Assembly (NCBI GenBank): GCA_947476275.1
Contig: CANJPQ010000013.1
Coordinates: 1 to 64,000, forward strand
Reading direction: 5' to 3'
DNA: 64,000 nucleotides
DNA from: Fidelibacterota bacterium
Lineage (GTDB): Bacteria; Pseudomonadota; Alphaproteobacteria; Rhodospirillales; Rhodospirillaceae
The notes under the pieces are model-generated. The model searched no databases. It saw only the letters and a list, made by a program, of their open reading frames with translations, and was not told the origin of the DNA. Shown in pieces: positions 4,880 through 63,738 of this stretch (positions are counted from its first letter, which is position 1; each line of letters opens with the position of its first letter). The position numbers and the translations under genes are program-made.

Positions 4880-6625
4880 TTACGCGAGGGTGGCGAGGTG
4901 CGCGCGCAGCGCGGGCTCCATCTCCGCGAACACCGATTCCCAATCCTCGTGCCGCGGTTGACGGAACTGCCGCAGCGTCGGATAGAGCGCCGAGGTGGTG
5001 CCGCGCAGACCCCATCGCCAATCGGCGATGTGGACTTGCGCGAGCCAGCACGGCCGCGCCAGGGCGCCTGCGAGATGGGCGACCGCCGAATCGCACGCGA
5101 TCACCAGGTCGAGTGAGTCCATGACCGCGGCGGTGTCGAGGAAGGCTTGGTGACCGGCATCGAAGTCAGCGCCAAGGTCTTCAACCACCATTCCATCCGG
5201 CAGCGTGTGGAGCTGATCGAGCCCATCGAACATCTGCAGGCTGATGAGGCGTACGCCCGGCAGGGCGGCGATCCCTTGCAACCGGGCGAGAGGAAACGAG
5301 CGACCACTCTCATACTCCTTCTTCGAGTGCCAGCTGACGCCGATGCGGAATCCGCTCTGACCGATGCGCTTGCGCCACGCCGCGACCCGCACCGGATCCG
5401 CATGCAGATAGGGTGGGCGAACAGCCACATCACCGAACACCCGCGGCAAGCTGAACATCGCGCAATGCACATCGAAATCGACTTCGTAAGGCCGATTGGT
5501 GATCGTAACCGTGGGACTGACGGTGCGGGCGAGCGCGTGGAGAATGTCGGTGAGGGAGAGCGTGACGTTCGCGCCCATCGCCTCCAAGGCCGGAATGTAG
5601 CGCATCAATTGGATGGTATCGCCGAGACCTTGCTCGGCGTGAACCAGGAGTTTGCGGCCGGCGATCGGCTCGCCCGGCTGAAGCTCCGGACGCGGAGTCA
5701 CCAGCACGCCGAGCGGCTCCGGCAGTTGTTTGCGCGCTTCGAAGTCTTCCAGGCCGCGAGCGGTCTCGCCGATCGAAAGCAGGCAAATGGCGCGCCCGAC
5801 TCGGCTTTGGGCATCGGTGGCGTTGAGGCGAAGCGCTTCGTCGAAGTGGGCCAATGCGGTGGAGGTATCGCCCAGGTAGTGCAGCGTCACCGCCAGATTG
5901 CGGTGTTGGGCGCCGTCCTGCGGCGCAAGCGAAAGCGCGCGTTCGAAGGCTGTGCGCGCCACCTCGAACTGACGCAGTTTCAGCGCCGATCGGCCGACAT
6001 TCGCATGCGCCTCCTTGAAGTCGCCGCGCGCGGATACTGCGCGCCGAGCGTCGTCGAAGGCTTCCGCGAAACGCCCGAGCCGATGAAGTTCGTTAGCGCG
6101 ATTGTTGTAGGCCGTGGCATTCGCAGGATCGAGCGCGATCGCCTGCGCATAGCGCGCAAGGCAAGCGTCAATTTTCTTGGCGCCGCTCAGGGCAGTCGCG
6201 AGGGAGATGTAGGCGGACGGGTTATTGGGAACCACGGTCACATATCGTTCGTAAGCCGCAGCCGCGTCGTCGAACCGGCGCAACGCAAGCAGCGCATCCG
6301 CGCGCCGCAGCAACGCCTCCGCATGGTCGGGTTGGCGCGCAAGCAGCCCATCGCAGGCCGCCAGCGCCTCCGTATAGCGCCCAGCACCTTGCAGTGAGGT
6401 CGCCAGATTGGCCTGAGCTGCAATGTCATCTGGGTTGGCCGCGACCGCCTTGACCAGCACCTCTGCGGCGCGGGCGTAGCGTGCGGTGTTCATCAAGAGC
6501 ACGCCGAAGAGGCGGAGCGCGGCGGCATGGTGCGGCCGCTCGCGCAAAATCTCTTCATAGGCGGCTTCGGCTTCGGCGGCCTTGCCGAGCTGATGGAAGG
6601 CGATTGCCTCTTGAATGGTAGGCAT
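4880..6625 (-). CDS. TPR-glycosyltransferase fusion (GT-B, family-9-like C-terminus; FlmG-like architecture)
   Basis: A 581-residue protein. Residues about 1-280 are successive tetratricopeptide repeats (AEAEAAYEEILRERPHHAAAL and similar units). The C-terminal 280 residues form a GT-B-type domain with KLLVHAEQGLGDTIQLMRYIP, RIGVSWHSKKEYESGRSFPL and DLVIACDSAVAHLAGAL, motifs of the ADP-heptose-transferase-like branch that is often fused to TPRs. In Caulobacter a protein of this build (FlmG) glycosylates flagellin, so a protein-glycosylating role is plausible; acceptor and donor sugar are unknown. It follows a paralogue by 5 bases on the same strand, pointing to an operon. Confidence 0.82.
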   Translation of the reverse strand: MPTIQEAIAFHQLGKAAEAEAAYEEILRERPHHAAALRLFGVLLMNTARYARAAEVLVKAVAANPDDIAAQANLATSLQGAGRYTEALAACDGLLARQPDHAEALLRRADALLALRRFDDAAAAYERYVTVVPNNPSAYISLATALSGAKKIDACLARYAQAIALDPANATAYNNRANELHRLGRFAEAFDDARRAVSARGDFKEAHANVGRSALKLRQFEVARTAFERALSLAPQDGAQHRNLAVTLHYLGDTSTALAHFDEALRLNATDAQSRVGRAICLLSIGETARGLEDFEARKQLPEPLGVLVTPRPELQPGEPIAGRKLLVHAEQGLGDTIQLMRYIPALEAMGANVTLSLTDILHALARTVSPTVTITNRPYEVDFDVHCAMFSLPRVFGDVAVRPPYLHADPVRVAAWRKRIGQSGFRIGVSWHSKKEYESGRSFPLARLQGIAALPGVRLISLQMFDGLDQLHTLPDGMVVEDLGADFDAGHQAFLDTAAVMDSLDLVIACDSAVAHLAGALARPCWLAQVHIADWRWGLRGTTSALYPTLRQFRQPRHEDWESVFAEMEPALRAHLATLA

Positions 6626-6630
6626 TGCAG

Positions 6631-8151
6631 CTAAGCTATCGGCAGCGATCGAGCGGCGTCTTGCGTGCTACGCGGTTCGGCGCCGAGCAGTTCGTGCAAC
6701 GCCTGTTCCATCTCGATAAAGACGCCGTCCCATGCGTCCTGCGCCTTCTGACGGAACACGCGTGCCGTTGGGTACCAGGGCGTGGTAGGCCCGCTCGGGC
6801 GCCAGCGCCATTCCGCGACATGCTTCACCGCGACCCACGTGCGGTAGCCCAACGCGCCGGCGAGATTGGCCACGGAGGTATCGCAGGAAATGACGACGTC
6901 GAGGTTTGCCATGACCGCAGCCGTGTCGAGGAAATCGCCGCGGTCGTAATCGTCGCCCAGGAGTTCGACCGTCATGCCTGCCGGCAGGGTAGCGAGCTGT
7001 TCCAGTTCCTCGCCCTTTTGCAAACTGATGAGCCGCACCGACGGGAGCCGCGCGAGGCGGACAAGCCCAGCCAGAGGAAAAGTACGCGTGCTGTCTTTAG
7101 CTTTCGCCACGCCCCAGCACACGCCGATCTTGAAGCCTTCAGTGCCGATGCGCGCACGCCAGTCGGCAATTGCCTCCGGAGTGGCATGCAGATAGGGAAC
7201 CGCATCGGGGATCGGCTGATCAATGAAGGCCAACGGCAGACTGAACGTCGCACAAACGTAGTCTATCGCGCCGAGCCCTGCGGTGGAATTTGTGACGGCG
7301 ATCATGGGACTGAGCGTGCGCAGCAGCCGATGCAACGGAGGCGGAGCCAGAATGACGACGCGCGCGCCTTTAGCCTCAGCGCGCAGGGCATAACGGCAGA
7401 GTTGCAGCGTGTCGCAAAAACCCTGCTCGGCATAGATCAAAAGTATCTTGCCGTTGAGATCTTCGCGTCCCGTCCAGGTCGTGCCGTCTCCGGTCCAGAT
7501 CCCCAGGGGATCGTCGCGCTTCTTGCGCCATTCGTATTCCGCCCAGCCCTCCGCCCAGCGGCCGATGACCAACAGACACAGGGCTCGATCGAAATGCGCC
7601 ATGACGCGGTTCGGATTGAGCGCCAGTTCGCGTTCGAAGCTCACCAGCGCTTCTTCCGTGCGACCGAGCGCGAACAGGCACACGCCGCGATAGTGAAGGG
7701 CGTCGACATCGGTCGGCGCAAGCGTGACCGCACGATCGAAGGCGGCGAACGCCTCCCAATAGCGCCGCAATTGATATAGCGCGAGGCCGGCATTGGCGTG
7801 CGCGCCAATGAGGTCTGGATCGCGCGCCAGGGCTGCGCGGCTGGCCGTGAGGGCCTCGTCGAAACGACCGAGACGATACAGTTCTGCCGAGCTGTTGAGC
7901 GACGCTGCGGCAAGACTTTTCGACGCGGCGGCAAGATTGGCTTGCGCCGCGGCGTCCGCCGGATTGGCAGCAACCGCCCTGGCCAGCACGTCGGCCGCGC
8001 GGTCGATGCGGCCGGTGTTCAGGAGCAGCAAACCGAACAAGGAGAGGGCTGCGGCGTTGGCCGGCTGGGCCGCGATGATTTGCTCATAGGCGGCTTCGGC
8101 TTCGGCCACCTTGCCGTGCTGATGGAGCGCTATCGCCTGTTGCAGGGTCAC
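6631..8151 (-). CDS. TPR-glycosyltransferase fusion, paralogue of the downstream gene
   Basis: A 506-residue protein with the same layout as its downstream neighbour: N-terminal TPR units (AEAEAAYEQIIAAQPANAAAL; ADVLARAVAANPADAAAQ) for about 210 residues, then a GT-B-like domain with KILLIYAEQGFCDTLQLCRYA, FKIGVCWGVAKAKDSTRTFPL and DVVISCDTSVANLAGALG. The shared C-terminal ends (HVAEWRW...YPTARVFRQ versus HIADWRW...YPTLRQFRQ) show tandem duplication. It carries FCD where the paralogue has LGD in the motif EQGLGDT, a difference that might alter donor binding. A terminator lies upstream (8185-8224), so the pair probably has its own promoter. Confidence 0.82.
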   Translation of the reverse strand: MTLQQAIALHQHGKVAEAEAAYEQIIAAQPANAAALSLFGLLLLNTGRIDRAADVLARAVAANPADAAAQANLAAASKSLAAASLNSSAELYRLGRFDEALTASRAALARDPDLIGAHANAGLALYQLRRYWEAFAAFDRAVTLAPTDVDALHYRGVCLFALGRTEEALVSFERELALNPNRVMAHFDRALCLLVIGRWAEGWAEYEWRKKRDDPLGIWTGDGTTWTGREDLNGKILLIYAEQGFCDTLQLCRYALRAEAKGARVVILAPPPLHRLLRTLSPMIAVTNSTAGLGAIDYVCATFSLPLAFIDQPIPDAVPYLHATPEAIADWRARIGTEGFKIGVCWGVAKAKDSTRTFPLAGLVRLARLPSVRLISLQKGEELEQLATLPAGMTVELLGDDYDRGDFLDTAAVMANLDVVISCDTSVANLAGALGYRTWVAVKHVAEWRWRPSGPTTPWYPTARVFRQKAQDAWDGVFIEMEQALHELLGAEPRSTQDAARSLPIA

Positions 8152-8242: not shown

Positions 8243-9409
8243 TTAGGCCTTGATGCCGCGGATCAGCGGCGTGTTCGGGACTTCGACGACTTTCATGCCG
8301 CTCTTCTTAAACTCGGCCGGGAAGTCGATGCGATGCCAATCGGCGTACCAATCCTCATGGTTCCAACGGTAGTTGTACCACAGGGTGTACTTGCCCTTGA
8401 CGGTTTCGGGGTTCTTGTTGTCGTCGGTCGGCGAGAACACGCCGCCTGGACGCAACACGCGGCCAACTTCCTTGATGATGGCTTGCGTGCCCGTGTAGTT
8501 CACTTCGTGGAACAGCAAGTTCGAGACAACGATGTCGAAATGGTTGTCCGGGAACTTCGTGTCTTCCGCCAGACGCTGCACGTAATTGACGGCGATGCCG
8601 TTGTCGGCCGCCTTCATATGCGAGTAGCGAACCATCGGACCACCGATGTCCAAGCCCCACACTTCGGCTTCCGGGAAACGGCGCTTCATCGAGCTGGCGA
8701 ATTGGCCGATCGACGTGCCGATATCGAGAATGCGCTTCACCTTTCCGTCTGCCGGGGTCATGGCGTTGCCCGCCATGCCGATGTGAGCGCCGTCCTGGTA
8801 GTTGCGGTCGACGTAGGCGCCCCAGTTGGTGCCGCAGTCGTACATGTGACCGGCGAACTCATCACCGACGTAGCCGCCCGGCATCGAGTGGATTTCGTGG
8901 GCGGTGTATTCCGGGATCACCATCTTCGGATTCAGCTCGAGCGAGCCCGGCCCGAGCTTGTCGGCCTTTTCCATCTCCGTCAGGTACTCGTCGGCGTGCT
9001 GATGGTAGTAGTCCTGCACCATCTTGTACTTGAGTTTCTGATGGCTCGTGCGAGCGCGGCAGGTCATCGCGATCAGCGGATCCTTGTCGATCAGGGCAAC
9101 AGCCTCACCCCAACTCATCGGCTTCTTCGGATCGATCTTCTTGGCGGAGAGCAGCTCGATGGCGCGTTGTTCGGCGGCACGCTCCAACTCCTGGCCGCGC
9201 CAAGTGTAGATGCCGGAGTAGAAGTCGCCCTTGCTCTCCATGTCCAGTTCGGGCTGACGGGCGTAGATGCCGTCATAGCCGCGCTTGGCGAGACGCTTCA
9301 CGACGTCAGCGGCCTCGGCGCGATTGGCGGACAGCGAGGCCACTGCGGAGGCAGTGACGGCCGCCGTGGTGTATTGGAAGACTTGGCGTCGATTCATCCA
9401 GAACTTCAT
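8243..9409 (-). CDS. SAM-dependent methyltransferase-fold protein with apparent Tat signal peptide
   Basis: A 388-residue protein. Residues 5-12 read MNRRQVFQ, a twin-arginine-like motif, followed by an Ala/Thr/Ser-rich hydrophobic stretch and a likely cleavage site after AEA at residue 33, so export by Tat is predicted. Residues about 34-220 form an unfamiliar domain ending in P..VIPEYTAHEIHSMPGGY (about 163-180). Residues 227-360 form a class I methyltransferase with motif I ILDIGTSIGQF, acidic LDIG and PDNHFDIVVSNLLFHE. Export would be odd because SAM is cytosolic; either the signal is a retained anchor or the protein has another job. It lies 21 bases after a small gene; the pair is paralogous to 62174-63738. 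Confidence 0.75.
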   Translation of the reverse strand: MKFWMNRRQVFQYTTAAVTASAVASLSANRAEAADVVKRLAKRGYDGIYARQPELDMESKGDFYSGIYTWRGQELERAAEQRAIELLSAKKIDPKKPMSWGEAVALIDKDPLIAMTCRARTSHQKLKYKMVQDYYHQHADEYLTEMEKADKLGPGSLELNPKMVIPEYTAHEIHSMPGGYVGDEFAGHMYDCGTNWGAYVDRNYQDGAHIGMAGNAMTPADGKVKRILDIGTSIGQFASSMKRRFPEAEVWGLDIGGPMVRYSHMKAADNGIAVNYVQRLAEDTKFPDNHFDIVVSNLLFHEVNYTGTQAIIKEVGRVLRPGGVFSPTDDNKNPETVKGKYTLWYNYRWNHEDWYADWHRIDFPAEFKKSGMKVVEVPNTPLIRGIKA

Positions 9410-9430
9410 GTGTGTTCTCCCGAAACCTGA

Positions 9431-9829
9431 TTAAAGGGCTTTTTTGACGGTCGGATCGGGCACGTCGATCGATGCGCCGTAGTGGATGGTGCCCATCACT
9501 TTGAATGGATCGTAGAGTTCCGTAACGAAGGTATCGCGGGCCTTCTTCAGCTGCGCCTTCTCGGCTTCCGTCGGAACGTACTTCTCGATCATGTCGCGCG
9601 TGACTTTGCCGTTCTTCTCCATCAGGATTTCGGTGATGGCGATGCGGCGCTGCAGCGCCCAGACGTTGGCGCCGAGCGCCATCATCGAGGTGAACATTGC
9701 ATCGACCGTCGGCGCCATGCCCTCGTTGCTGGTGAACACGGCGGCGTCGTAGTCGGCTTCGACAAACGGCGCGGCATAGGTCTCGTGATTGGTTTGCAGT
9801 TTGGATTTTACGATTTTCTTTTCGGCCAT
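9431..9829 (-). CDS. Small helical protein, partner of the adjacent methyltransferase (unknown family)
   Basis: A 132-residue soluble protein of no recognised family. The central part (about 40-95) reads as amphipathic helix: VDAMFTSMMALGANVWALQRR, then TEILMEKNGKVTRDMIEKYVP. The same ungapped pattern is seen in the small gene at 63367-63738, which likewise precedes a methyltransferase. No signal peptide or membrane segment is seen. The start ATG has a good Shine-Dalgarno (GGGGAG) about 9 bases upstream. It lies first in a two-gene transcript, so a subunit, regulator or chaperone role for the methyltransferase is inferred. Confidence 0.7.
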   Translation of the reverse strand: MAEKKIVKSKLQTNHETYAAPFVEADYDAAVFTSNEGMAPTVDAMFTSMMALGANVWALQRRIAITEILMEKNGKVTRDMIEKYVPTEAEKAQLKKARDTFVTELYDPFKVMGTIHYGASIDVPDPTVKKAL

Positions 9830-9975: not shown

Positions 9976-10470
9976 ATGCTGCGCCTGCTCACACGTCTCG
10001 CTGTTGTGACGCTAGCGGTTGTGATCGGGGCTGGGGGTGCGTCCGCCCAGAGCGCCGCCCCCACGGCCGCTGAGGTCGCCAAGGCCAAGGATGAAATCTG
10101 GGCCAAGGAACTTGCGATCTATGCCGGGCGGGCGAAGGGGGATGTGACCTACTACTACAACAACGCCTCGCCGGACTTCCTGGCCTGGACCTATGGCACC
10201 CCGAAGCCGTTCCAGAACGACAATCTGGCCAAGGCGCGCACCACGATGAAGGGCCAGGACAAGGAGAAGATCGACACCGCGTTCCGGGATTTCTCCCTGC
10301 ATGGGGACACGGCGATCATCTATTACGTGAATCACCGCACCATGCTGCCGAACGGCACGCCGGTCGATCAGACCTTCGATAACATCCACGTCTGGGTGCG
10401 CGACGGCAACGACTGGAAGGTGTTGGCCTCGATGTCGCGCCTGAACGACAAAGCTAACGACAAACCCTAG
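9976..10470 (+). CDS. Secreted NTF2-like (SnoaL/DUF4440-type) protein
   Basis: A 164-residue protein with a clear N-terminal signal peptide (LTRLAVVTLAVVIGAGGASAQS, probable cleavage after SAQ or ASA). The mature part has the cystatin-like cone pattern of SnoaL/DUF4440 proteins: helices with KDEIWAKELAIYAGRA, a middle SPDFLAWTYG segment and the strand pair DTAIIYYVNH...VWVRDGNDWKVLASMSRL. Such proteins are hydrolases, isomerases or binding proteins, so the function is open. It is divergent from the small-protein/methyltransferase pair. Its stop codon shares a CTAG tetranucleotide with the converging OGT-type gene. Confidence 0.75.
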   Translation: MLRLLTRLAVVTLAVVIGAGGASAQSAAPTAAEVAKAKDEIWAKELAIYAGRAKGDVTYYYNNASPDFLAWTYGTPKPFQNDNLAKARTTMKGQDKEKIDTAFRDFSLHGDTAIIYYVNHRTMLPNGTPVDQTFDNIHVWVRDGNDWKVLASMSRLNDKANDKP

Positions 10471-12467
10471 ACCGCCTTCAGCGCCGTGTAGAACGCTTGG
10501 GCGAAGCCGGCGACGTCGCAGACGGTCGAGGCTAAGAAACGTTGGCGCAAGTCGGCGCGCAAGGCAGCGCGCGCCGTCTGATCCGCTGCAAGCGCTTTGG
10601 CCTTGGCAACGAGATCGTCGACATCCACGGCCACGCCTTCCGGATAGCCGCCGTGGGTCAGATGCGCCGTGGCGTGACGCCCGCAAAAGCGATTCCCGGT
10701 CACGGTCAGCACCGGGACGCCCATCAGCAGCGCTTCGCAGGTGGTGAGCCCGCCGGAGTAAGGCGTGGTGTCGAGGATCGCGTCCACCTCGGCATACTGC
10801 GCGAGGAACAGTTCGTGGGGGCCGCCGGTACGGAACATGAGCCGTTCCGAGCCGATGCCCGCATCCACGAACAGACGGGTGATCCGGGCCTGACGCGCGT
10901 CGTCGGCGAGCATGTGATTGTTCAACACAAAGCGCGCGTCGGGGATCGCCTTGAGCACCGCAGCCCACAGGGCGACGGACGCGGGGCCGATCTTGGTGAC
11001 TTCACTGAAACAGCCGAAGGTGATGCCGCCGGTGTTCGGCGCCGGCGCCACGGGTGGCGCATAGTCTGGCGCGCGATAGCAGATGTAGTCCGGCGCGAAG
11101 CGCACAACGCGTTCGGTGTAGTAGCGGTCGTCCTGCGGCGGCGTGTGGATCGCATCGCCGAGAAGCGCGTCGATGGTTTTGAGGCCGCGCGTGTCGACAT
11201 AGTCGCCCCAGGCGACTTGCTTGGGCGCCGGCCGTAGCGCAAAAGCGGGCAAACGATTGTGGGGCGCGTGGCCGGAGAGGTCGATCAAGATATCGATCTC
11301 ATCGCGTGCAATCAGTTCCGCCAATTGGACAGTCGACAGCGCGCGAACGTCGCGCCAGGCATCCGCCGCCGCGCGGAACGACGCGGTGTGGGCGTCGGGT
11401 TTGGCGGTGGTCGAATAGCAGGTGAGATGCCAGGCCGCACGATCGCGCGCCTCGAACACCGGCAGCGCGAAGAACAGCATGGCGTGGAAGCGGAAATCGC
11501 CGGACACCACGCCGAGACGCAAAGGGCGCGCGGCGGCGCGCGTGCGCGGCGCGGCGTCGGGGAACATGGCGCCGTAGGCAAGATGTTCGCGAAACAGATC
11601 TTCGCGCGAGGTTTCCGGTGTGTAGTGCAGGCACATGAGAAGGCTGGAGCGGATCGCGGCGAGGTCGGGCTTGATGTCGAGCACGGCACGGCGATGTGCC
11701 GCGGCATCCATGCTGCCGTCGTCCACCAGGTCGGCGAGGCCAACATAGGCCGGCACGAGATCGGGATTGAGCGCGATGGCGCGCCGGAAAGCCGCCTCCG
11801 CCTCGCCCTTGCGGCCGGTCTCGCTCAGCACCACGCCCAAGTTGGCGTGCGCTTCGGCGTGGGAGGGGCGCAAGTCGATCGTGCGGCGGAAGGCAGCCTC
11901 CGCGGCGTCGAGACGCCCCGCGGCGTGCAGCGCGTTGCCGAGATTGAAGCGCAATTCGGCAGATTTCGGTGCGTGGGCGACCGCTTCGATCAACACCGTT
12001 GCAGCCCCTTCCACGTCGCCTTGCGCCTTCATCAAGACGGCGAGGTTGTTGTAGGCCGCGACATGGCCGGGCTTGAGCGCAATGCAGCGCTGATAGCTCG
12101 CCGCCGCGGCCTCGATCTCGCCGGCCTTTTGCTGCGCGTTGGCGAGGTTGAAGATCAGATCCGGTTCGTCAGGTGCTGCGACCTGCGCCCGGGTGAGCAC
12201 GTCGAGCGCCTCGCTGCTACGACCCTGCGCAAGCAAGCTGTTCCCAAGAGTATTGAGCACGAACGGGGCTTCACCGCCGGCGACGATCGCCCGGCGGGCG
12301 AAGCCTTCCGCGGCGACAGGATCGCCATCGTCCAGCGCCAAGACCGCAAGAAGATTGAGCGCATCGGCATTGCGGGGCGTTGTCGCCACCACCTGAGTAG
12401 CAAGCGTGACGGCGGCGTCGCGATTTCCCGCTTGGTAGAGCGCAATCGCGCGCGCGAGATCGGACAT
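10467..12467 (-). CDS. TPR-containing O-GlcNAc-transferase-like protein (SPINDLY/GT41 family)
   Basis: A 666-residue protein. Residues about 1-275 hold seven or so tetratricopeptide repeats (for example AEAHANLGVVLSETGRKGEAEAAFRRA). The remainder is a GT41 catalytic region: RLGVVSGDFRFHAMLFF (with the His typical of the N-terminal catalytic lobe), IDILIDLSGHAPHNRLPAF, KQVAWGDYVDTRGLKTIDALL, FGCFSEVTKIGP and DTTPYSGGLTTCEALLMGVPVLT. The family transfers GlcNAc or another sugar to Ser/Thr of proteins. It is the third TPR-glycosyltransferase in 8 kb, suggesting protein glycosylation; the acceptor is unknown. It lies downstream of the MsbA-type gene on the same strand, separated by a palindromic repeat. 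Confidence 0.87.
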   Translation of the reverse strand: MSDLARAIALYQAGNRDAAVTLATQVVATTPRNADALNLLAVLALDDGDPVAAEGFARRAIVAGGEAPFVLNTLGNSLLAQGRSSEALDVLTRAQVAAPDEPDLIFNLANAQQKAGEIEAAAASYQRCIALKPGHVAAYNNLAVLMKAQGDVEGAATVLIEAVAHAPKSAELRFNLGNALHAAGRLDAAEAAFRRTIDLRPSHAEAHANLGVVLSETGRKGEAEAAFRRAIALNPDLVPAYVGLADLVDDGSMDAAAHRRAVLDIKPDLAAIRSSLLMCLHYTPETSREDLFREHLAYGAMFPDAAPRTRAAARPLRLGVVSGDFRFHAMLFFALPVFEARDRAAWHLTCYSTTAKPDAHTASFRAAADAWRDVRALSTVQLAELIARDEIDILIDLSGHAPHNRLPAFALRPAPKQVAWGDYVDTRGLKTIDALLGDAIHTPPQDDRYYTERVVRFAPDYICYRAPDYAPPVAPAPNTGGITFGCFSEVTKIGPASVALWAAVLKAIPDARFVLNNHMLADDARQARITRLFVDAGIGSERLMFRTGGPHELFLAQYAEVDAILDTTPYSGGLTTCEALLMGVPVLTVTGNRFCGRHATAHLTHGGYPEGVAVDVDDLVAKAKALAADQTARAALRADLRQRFLASTVCDVAGFAQAFYTALKAV

Positions 12468-59517: not shown

Positions 59518-60113
59518 TGGCCCGGCGATTCACCGGCGGCAAACTGATCGTCGCCAGCCACAACGCCGGGAAGGTGCGCGAGATCCGCGAATTGCTGGCG
59601 CCGTATTCCGCCAATGTGATTTCCGCCGGCGATCTCGGCCTGCCGGAGCCGGAGGAGACCGGGACAACGTTCATTGCGAACGCTGAGCTCAAAGCGCGCG
59701 CGGCGGCAAGTGCTGCAAATCTTCCCGCACTTGCCGATGATTCCGGGTTCGCGGTCGATGCCTTGGATGGCGCGCCGGGGCTTTATTCCGCGCGCTGGGC
59801 GGGACCGAGCAAAGACTTCGCGTTCGCGATGAAGCGGGTGGAAGACGAGTTGCGCGGGAAGGCCGATACCCGCGCGCATTTCATCTGCGCGCTGTCGCTC
59901 GCTTGGCCCGATGGCACCTGCGAAAGCTTCGAGGGGGCGGTGCATGGCCACGTGACGTTTCCGGCGCGCGGGCTCAAGGGTTTCGGCTACGACCCGATCT
60001 TCATCGCCGACGGTTTCAAGGTGACGTTCGCGGAGATGGAGCCCAACGAGAAGCACGCCATCAGCCATCGCGCCGAAGCGTTCCGTCAACTCGTCGCCGC
60101 GTGCTTCGCTTAG
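59517..60113 (+). CDS. rdgB: dITP/XTP pyrophosphatase (RdgB/HAM1)
   Basis: A 198-residue enzyme that hydrolyses non-canonical purine nucleoside triphosphates. Motifs: [18 protein letters not shown] (substrate loop S-x-N-x-x-K), [28 protein letters not shown] (metal/base site) and [13 protein letters not shown] with a C-terminal [15 protein letters not shown]. The start is a GTG whose first base is the last base of the rph stop (TAGTG), so coupling is expected. The stop overlaps that of the opposing bicupin gene. Confidence 0.97.
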
Positions 60114-60952
60114 TAGCGATCGCCGCCGACGTAATCCTTCGCGATCGGCACCAACTCCGGCGGCAGCGCCGGCTTGTAGGGCATGTCGAAGGAATAGGGC
60201 ACTTGCTTGGTGTCCCACACGTTCACATGCTTACCGGCGCGAAAGCGGATCAAGGACATCGTGCCGTCGCGGCTGCCGAAGGGCCCGTGCGGCACTTCCG
60301 GCGGACGCCAGAAATATCCGCCGGGACGCTTGATGCCGTGGGGGCCGGCGATGGAGCCGGCGAGGTGAAACGACTCCTCCACGCACCGATGCGTCAGCGT
60401 CGGGCATTCCCAATTGGTCGGCGCGATCTGCGGTGCCGAGGAAAAAACGAAGGTCGATTTCTGCTCGTACACGGGATCCCAGCGCAGCGTTTTGGAGCGG
60501 TTGCCCATCCACGCCAGCGAAGGATCGCTGCCCACCTCCCACTTCAGGTCATAGAGGTTGAGGTATTCCACACTCACCGCGCCGCTCTTCACGGGCTTGG
60601 TGGTGAGTTCGGGAATGCCGTCGAAGAAGGTGATGGCCACGCAGCCTTTGGCCGAACTTGCCGACTGCCGCACATAGCCTGCGGGGAAGCAGGCGTAGCT
60701 GTCGCGCGCATAAATCCGACCGTTGATGGTAATTTCCCCGTCGAGGACATACATCTCTTCCTCGACTGAGAGAGCTTCCGGCTTGGTCTTCGCCCAGCCG
60801 GCGGGATAGCGCAGGATAAGCGAGGATTCGCCCAGATCTCGGTCGAAGCTTAAGACCTTCGTCTCGACATCGCCGCGCACGCCGGCGACCGCGACACCGG
60901 TCTGCCAGGGAAGGCATTGGGAATAGATGTATTCGATCAGCGGCCGACCCAT
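60110..60952 (-). CDS. Bicupin protein (ChrR-like/DUF4437-type)
   Basis: A 280-residue cytosolic protein with two beta-barrel cupin halves. The first has [49 protein letters not shown]. The second has [40 protein letters not shown], with a His-rich edge that could bind metal. I cannot assign a reaction; such proteins are usually called cupin-domain or DUF4437 proteins. It lies on the opposite strand between rdgB and hemW, an arrangement that breaks the usual rph-rdgB-hemW run, and its neighbour beyond hemW is the second methyltransferase module. Confidence 0.7.
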
Positions 60953-63366: not shown

Positions 63367-63738
63367 TCAGCCGTCGTTGATTTCGGTGATGACCTTATCG
63401 AGGCCTGCCTCGTCGACCTTCACATCGTAGCGCGCGAGGTCTTCTTTCAAAACGCGGAAGACTTTCCGCATAAGGCGGGTGCGCTGCGCGCTGCGCTCGG
63501 CCATCGCCTCCGGACCTGGCAGAAACTCGTCTACGTCCGGCGGTGAAAATACGCCCTTGGCGGCCGCTAGGCGTTCGTGGGTATCGAGCCTTTCTCGGAG
63601 GATCGAAATCTCGGCGGTCATTGCCACGACCATGGCCATGAGCTGATCGATCGCCCGATCGTCGTGGAATTGGGGCTGTTTGCCCTTAGCGAACCAGACC
63701 TTTTCCTTGGCTCCGGCGGTGCCCGGTGCGGCAACCAT
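63367..63738 (-). CDS. Small helical protein, partner of the adjacent methyltransferase (unknown family)
   Basis: A 123-residue soluble protein. The central helical part reads IDQLMAMVVAMTAEISILRERLDTHERLAAAKGVFSPPDVDEFLP. It aligns without gaps to the small gene at 9431-9829 (shared spacing of V/I-D, A, L-x-R-(L/I), E, G and the aromatic-V/L-P end). The ATG at 63738 has a GGAGAG Shine-Dalgarno at ideal spacing, better than a TTG 27 bases upstream. No signal or membrane segment is seen. Function is unknown; its conserved position before a methyltransferase suggests a shared complex or regulation. Confidence 0.7.
   Translation of the reverse strand: MVAAPGTAGAKEKVWFAKGKQPQFHDDRAIDQLMAMVVAMTAEISILRERLDTHERLAAAKGVFSPPDVDEFLPGPEAMAERSAQRTRLMRKVFRVLKEDLARYDVKVDEAGLDKVITEINDG

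Follow-up and report, generated by a model that had tools for sequence, protein, structure and literature searches.

A large, apparently undescribed family of paired methyltransferase-fold and small helical proteins, with dozens of copies in some aquatic bacteria

The enzymes closest to the large protein described here, which we call L, are class I methyltransferases. UbiG, UbiE, and CpaM, which are of the Methyltransf_11/25 type, have the same methyltransferase domain, which in L scores above the Pfam cutoffs and matches the fold of UbiG with a Z value of 17.2, but L adds an N-terminal helical half that falls into no known family, a dedicated small partner protein (S), and, in one branch, a twin-arginine translocation (Tat) signal. 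The O-methyltransferases DsyB, Rv2258c, and DnrK have an N-terminal helical domain and are among several structures that Foldseek matched to our whole model over 363 to 383 columns. However, the rmsd of these matches is 14 to 16, so that the whole L chain is not matched, and no convincing match was found for the N-terminal half taken alone. Trm112 serves several methyltransferases. Like S, Trm112-type activators are small partners of a class I methyltransferase, and 6f5z is among the Foldseek matches; in contrast, S has no Trm112 match, and each S appears to have diverged along with its own L.

SAM is generally known as a cytosolic cofactor, and we know of no supply of it for methyl transfer in the periplasm. 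LepI, SpnF, SlnM, and RdmB, which to our knowledge are biosynthetic enzymes with neither an S partner nor a Tat signal, share the methyltransferase fold with L, and their unconsumed cofactor would suit an exported enzyme. In these enzymes SAM is a prosthetic group, and in LepI the His of functional methyltransferases, which L keeps, is replaced by Arg (PMC10491745, in the part available to us). The Tat pathway exports folded, cofactor-loaded proteins, and it carries folded heterodimers, such as the Ni-Fe hydrogenases and formate dehydrogenases, that have a signal on only one partner (PMC10924467, also available in part). S-L pairs of the Tat branch are predicted to share this one-sided signal, but the known hitchhikers are redox enzymes, whereas here the cargo has a methyltransferase fold and S would be coexported.

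The window, by which we mean the whole 64,000-nucleotide stretch of DNA that was analyzed, carries two S-L gene pairs with the following parts.

8243..9409, minus strand: large protein L, copy 1, 388 amino acids (aa), with a predicted Tat signal, a helical N-terminal half, and a class I methyltransferase domain
9305..9409, minus strand: predicted Tat signal peptide of copy-1 L, approximately residues 1 to 35, disordered in the model
8744..9292, minus strand: N-terminal half of copy-1 L, residues 40 to 222, predicted long helices, with the motif of the invariant H174 inside
8246..8914, minus strand: class I methyltransferase domain of copy-1 L, approximately residues 166 to 388, with Methyltransf_25 at 227 to 323; conserved residues are G231, G235, D254, H301, E302, and E352
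9431..9829, minus strand: small helical partner S, copy 1, 132 aa
62174..63352, minus strand: large protein L, copy 2, 392 aa, without a Tat signal
63367..63738, minus strand: small helical partner S, copy 2, 123 aa, or 132 aa from an upstream GTG start

A preliminary description, made from the sequence of the window, had reported four open reading frames with the same order, strand, and spacing in the two pairs. They are present as described: all are on the minus strand, S is upstream of L in both pairs, and the gaps between S and L are 21 bases (copy 1) and 14 bases (copy 2). The two L proteins are 31% identical across 267 residues (E, 1e-29), and both contain the motif GSL..(N/D)P...P.Y....IH.MPG.Y that had been pointed out, whose residues P166, H174, P177, and G178 (copy-1 numbering) are found in 95 to 100% of both branches of 110 L proteins. 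Copy 1 is flanked by three large TPR-like proteins (window positions 4880 to 8151 and 10467 to 12467) that by eye resemble TPR glycosyltransferases of the O-GlcNAc-transferase type. Near copy 2 is a cupin (Cupin_7/DUF4437; window positions 60110 to 60952), and proteins with an N-terminus that by eye is like that of this cupin are near L in loci L179 and L192.

When the two window L proteins were used as queries against the window's own assembly (4.48 Mb in 77 contigs), they gave 36 and 39 places, generic methyltransferases counted in. Counted again in all six frames of the fetched stretches, this genome has 34 L and 23 S. Iterated profiles run on the called genes detected 33 different L and 23 different S, in 34 and 24 rows because window copy 2 appears twice; the extra L of the recount is L143, which is absent from the called genes. 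Whole-genome profile searches gave 33 N-terminal halves of L and 23 S. These numbers rule out a simple two-copy duplication, and the window pairs, of which the first had been labeled "copy 1 of 2," belong to a set with 34 L paralogs. This copy number had been missed, as had the predicted Tat signal of copy 1 and the existence of L genes without an adjacent S.

S and the N-terminal half of L occur together in 10 of 61 genomes (this one and 60 relatives) and are both absent from the other 51. The numbers of S and L matches were 23 and 33 in G000, 12 and 17 in G002, 27 and 43 in G003, 38 and at least 56 in G005, 20 and 31 in G007, 34 and at least 56 in G018, 14 and 21 in G024, 24 and 45 in G025, 17 and 24 in G026, and 21 and 33 in G034; the L value in G005 and G018 is a lower bound because 56 candidates were scored. 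Profile searches found neither S nor L in G001, which is of the same genus as the window genome. S is present in 19 of the 73 genomes of the window genome's family, its own included. By their record titles, the named relatives are alphaproteobacterial metagenome-assembled genomes from lakes, the sea, and other aquatic habitats. In a sample of 385 genomes from the class, 25 have the N-terminal half of L, as do 4 of 398 sampled from the phylum; each sample counts the window's own genome, and at most 8 candidates were scored per genome. S-L is a large, apparently undescribed family, of which some aquatic bacteria have dozens of copies. With 34 L genes here and at least 56 in each of two relatives, a visible share of the genes of lake and sea bacteria is spent on one enzyme family.

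There is a second expansion, of at least 8 copies per genome, in four genomes of another family of the class (G480, G595, G685, and G756); no Tat signal was found in the copies of it that were checked. By eye, a fairly recent segmental duplication connects loci L123 and L125 (contigs C28 and C43) of the window's genome, where the S, L, and FMN-binding genes are nearly alike.

In the window's genome, a same-strand S lies within 400 bases of 18 of the 34 L, and 18 of the 23 S are paired in this way, whereas by chance well below one of the 23 S would be expected to be paired (with 34 L and about one gene per kb). Of the five remaining S, three are in stretches without any L, one is separated from an L by a single gene, and one is at a contig end. 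Conserved adjacency in other genomes, which had been proposed as a check, was found: outside the genome's family, 25 of 32 loci, each represented by its best L match, have a same-strand S within 400 bases, as do 24 of the 27 loci with at least 400 bases on both flanks, although not all of these loci are independent: L168 and L169 are almost identical plasmid segments, and a single genus contributed both L228 and L231. S is beside L on plasmid loci of Sphingomonas sp. JE1, Sphingobium sp. TomTYG65, Novosphingobium resinovorum (where S adjoins a tblastn match of L), and Antarctobacter heliothermus; it is not beside L at the Gloeothece locus. Loci L061 and L070 yielded no called genes. Across 40 larger stretches, many of them from the second expanded family (f135), 25 of 44 L copies were paired, L genes at stretch ends being omitted from this count.

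We gathered 110 full-length L proteins, a set that omits L143, L154 (which lies on the stretch that contains window copy 2), L proteins shorter than 330 aa, and identical sequences. An S adjoins 51 of these; the other 59 lack one, in some cases near a contig end. The unpaired genes include series of as many as five Tat-type L, so that L is not in every case encoded together with an S. Adjacency is thus the rule where the family is rare and looser where it is expanded. The unpaired majority of the gathered L counts against a strict pairing. Four loci in relatives (L040, L050, L056, and L062) have four to six consecutive L genes, mostly of the Tat type, with no S in the stretch.

The two window S proteins had been described as related. 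By BLASTP they are 18% identical over 72 residues, which is not significant (E, 0.45), but profiles bear the relationship out. A profile of the S partners of Tat-type L proteins detected all 16 other S, copy-2 S among them with an E value of 1.1e-14; one of these 16 belongs to L125, whose L is of the Tat type. The reverse profile detected 35 of 35 S, with copy-1 S at 7.2e-17, and hhalign gave 99.7%. Compared to Pfam, 29 S members gave 23 weak families, all at chance level, with no TorD and no Trm112 among them, and a search by sequence against solved structures gave a best E value of 0.082.

The S and L distance matrices are strongly correlated. For 51 pairs r was 0.844 (null maximum, 0.22 in 2,000 permutations), for the 18 pairs of the window's genome it was 0.886 (null maximum, 0.62 in 5,000 permutations), and for 34 pairs below 65% identity it was 0.688 (null maximum, 0.34). 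As judged from these distances, the divergence of each S follows that of its L. A correlation of this kind would also arise from descent through duplication alone, so the result speaks for joint inheritance of the pairs, not for contact between the proteins. The 51 codiverged pairs are ready material for coexpression and structure work.

A complex prediction had been proposed earlier, and a structure model was made. The copy-1 genes are in frame, and the TAA between them was read as a residue to give a single S-L chain, for which the AlphaFold alignment had 70 rows, 7 of them fused. The predicted chain had a pLDDT of 87.3 and a pTM of 0.86, and residues 134 to 173, which lie between S and mature L and include the signal, were disordered. 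By rough arithmetic, a pTM of 0.63 to 0.67 would be expected if S were misplaced by 15 to 28 Å. From the pTM of this one read-through chain, S is most likely docked on L. The profiles, the adjacency, and the read-through model support the earlier proposal of an uncharacterized unit in which a small protein is a dedicated partner.

A class I methyltransferase had also been recognized in L, correctly so: Methyltransf_25 scored 72.5 and 75.2 bits in the two window L proteins (cutoff, 27), and in VIA-align the methyltransferase domain (model residues 306 to 528) superimposed on UbiG (4kdr) over 184 residues with an rmsd of 2.9. No NCBIfam model was above its cutoff among the best 25 of 49 for copy 1 or the best 25 of 52 for copy 2; the matches listed are methyltransferase models below cutoff and one chance match, the best being CpaM, far below its cutoff. 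Three residues are present in all 110 L proteins, H174 in the N-terminal half and H301 and E302 after strand 4, and G231, G235, D254, F291, D292, and E352 are present in at least 92% of each branch. G231, G235, and D254, which are the motif I glycines and the acidic residue after strand 2, reach 94 to 100% in both branches; in the two window copies, Ser or Thr takes the place of the middle motif I glycine. We take the conserved residues, such as G231, G235, and D254, to cover the usual SAM site. By their spacing and place in the fold, H301 and E352 resemble a His-Glu dyad of O-methyltransferases, for example His313/Glu369 of OxaC (PMC10491745, in the part available). A metal site in L, an idea from the titles of PDB entries (BelI and CysG), was dropped, with no supporting literature found.

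The N-terminal half of L had not been placed before. A single profile detects it in both window copies. The window copy matched 0 Pfam families, and 50 members gave 14 scattered families with a best E value of 0.0089. Modeled alone, it had a pLDDT of 82.6 and a pTM of 0.71. Foldseek gave 36 matches up to an E value of 10, the best, at 0.86, being unconvincing, and the best Z value among 127 chains in VIA was 5.6, a weak match to unrelated helical proteins. Such weak matching does not prove that the fold is new.

The N-terminus of copy-1 L has an RR motif together with a hydrophobic stretch and A-x-A. With this combination as the rule, a Tat signal is predicted in 70 of the 110 L proteins; the corresponding numbers are 41 of 439 for the other proteins encoded in these stretches and 124 of 3,500 for shuffled N-termini. 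In the window's genome the rule applies to 13 of 32 full-length called L, or 14 of 32 if the start of the L at locus L125 is moved upstream, and this genome has one copy of TatC (E, 2.3e-71). The mature proteins have 1.5 Cys in the Tat branch versus 3.1 in the other branch. According to a home-made rule, 56 of 58 S have no predicted signal, and S is the upstream gene in 33 of the 34 pairs that have a Tat-type L. On a FastTree tree of 153 proteins with the Tat N-termini trimmed, in which 43 newly added L were scored as non-Tat after a check found no Tat signal in them, the Tat signal requires at least 6 changes and the position of S at least 5 changes among 75 paired L. The Tat signal and the S position are thus mostly clade traits. 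By eye, one Tat-like L, L173 of G542, is outside the genome's family.

Secretory proteins made up 23 of 52 neighbors around Tat-type L in the window's genome versus 9 of 65 in the comparison (P, 3e-4), but there was no such enrichment in relatives (35 of 119 versus 8 of 28; P, 1.0), and we give the former result little weight. Literature searches on methyltransferases with a twin-arginine signal peptide gave nothing on the S-L family among the matches listed, and no paper was found on Tat signals combined with methyltransferase expansion.

The family, its copy numbers, the linkage and codivergence of S and L, the confident single-chain model, and the signal-peptide pattern are computed results. 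The reading of them to which we give an even chance is that S-L is a substrate-diversified two-subunit enzyme that has been duplicated in aquatic Alphaproteobacteria and whose Tat branch is exported as a folded complex with S. L would be the catalytic subunit, with a SAM-binding class I methyltransferase domain, a long helical arm ahead of it, and a candidate active site of conserved His and Glu residues (H301, E302, and E352). S would be a small helical subunit, codiverged with L, that packs on L, perhaps on the helical arm. Within one aquatic alphaproteobacterial clade, duplication would have raised the pair to dozens of copies, each of them probably specialized for a different small organic substrate; the substrates, like SAM binding and methyl transfer themselves, we infer. 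In the Tat-type branch, to which window copy 1 belongs, L would fold in the cytoplasm with its cofactor and S, after which the complex would pass through Tat. Because Tat carries folded heterodimers with a one-sided signal, S could ride along and leave with L as a hitchhiker. In the other branch, represented by window copy 2, the complex would work in the cytoplasm. That a methyltransferase fold would be sent through Tat by the dozens raises the question of the role of SAM or SAH there. An exported enzyme that uses SAM would either turn over once per molecule or hold SAM as a prosthetic group, and the two main clues conflict: the kept catalytic His is an argument for methyl transfer, but a periplasmic location is an argument against it. 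Tentatively, and with much more doubt than belief, we suggest that the exported L, folded around a nucleoside cofactor and its private S, uses the cofactor unconsumed on dissolved organics in the periplasm.

SAM could also be a bound prosthetic group, with L carrying out a nonmethylating reaction (dehydration, decarboxylation, hydroxylation, or rearrangement) as LepI, SpnF, SlnM, and RdmB do. Many pairs are among catabolic-looking genes, and a prosthetic SAM, which is an established use of the cofactor (PMC10491745, in the part available), would explain turnover in the periplasm, given that Tat exports folded, cofactor-loaded proteins (PMC10924467, likewise). Yet the candidate catalytic His is invariant in L, whereas LepI has Arg at that place (PMC10491745), and we consider this possible but rather unlikely. 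The conserved SAM-site and His-Glu residues in both branches are what would be expected of working methyltransferases, and the listed fold matches of the L model are methyltransferases. These matches, which we presume to be cytosolic enzymes, would suit a family of ordinary cytoplasmic small-molecule methyltransferases that S stabilizes, their RR N-termini being anchors or remnants and not for export. Against this are the frequency of RR, hydrophobic stretch, and A-x-A together, which is far over both the background and the shuffled N-termini, and the halved Cys content of the Tat branch, so that a wholly cytoplasmic family seems to us rather improbable.

TorD and DmsD are Tat proofreading and assembly chaperones, and S might be another, binding the signal peptide and remaining in the cytoplasm. 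Its general lack of a signal and its place upstream of nearly all paired Tat-type L would agree with such a role. However, S is also paired with signal-less L, including in distant genomes, the signal is disordered in the model while S is confidently placed, and no TorD match was found for S in Pfam; a chaperone is accordingly an unlikely identity for S. A small gene adjoining L on the same strand could also encode a toxin-antitoxin-like or regulatory partner unrelated to catalysis, but the strong codivergence, the confident joint model, and the purely chance-level Pfam matches of S make this very improbable. Compared to all of these, the two-subunit enzyme with an exported branch is the reading that we prefer.

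Gene neighborhoods were compared by clustering 809 neighbor proteins, each recurrent group being named from one Pfam-scanned member and counted without a random-locus control. Recurrent groups were VanA-type Rieske oxygenases (9 loci), MmgE/PrpD and DUF1838 (7 each), hydantoinase A and MFS_2 (6 each), hydantoinase B and HapK/REDY-like proteins (5 each), and FMN-binding proteins (7 loci, in the window's genome and aquatic relatives only). The largest clusters are, by eye, common families: zinc alcohol dehydrogenase-like, ABC ATPase-like, and alpha/beta hydrolase-like. The commonest Pfam family was MFS_1, in 10 of 149 neighbors in the window's genome (149 of the 154 collected were scanned) and in 4 of 105 in relatives (those left of 127 after removal of near duplicates), proteins longer than 900 aa being omitted. 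One pathway common to all copies was not seen; the neighbors vary by locus. Literature searches gave no paper on HapK with hydantoinase and MmgE and none on pJE1 or Sphingomonas sp. JE1, and in the part available of a paper on Sphingobium sp. TomTYG65 (PMC10653915) the word "methyltransferase" occurs 0 times.

Genome-wide counts were made for MmgE/PrpD and DUF1838 in 12 genomes. The sole MmgE/PrpD and the sole DUF1838 of G347 are in L-S neighborhoods, as is the sole DUF1838 of G150. Other genomes that have the pair lack one or both: MmgE/PrpD is absent genome-wide from G577 and G718, and DUF1838 is absent from G756, G783, G468, G577, G685, and G706. Overall, the neighbors suggest breakdown of diverse organic compounds but no particular compound. 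DUF1838, itself a family of unknown function, is expanded in two genomes, with 20 matches in G000 and 24 in G718; in the literature, DUF1838 together with methyltransferases led to a single paper, on an antibiotic. Homologous FMN-binding-domain proteins are beside family members at L123, L125, L133, and L151 in the window's genome and at L031, L034, and L054. They have a signal-like N-terminus, and several have an SGATxS site, which we take to be a flavinylation motif.
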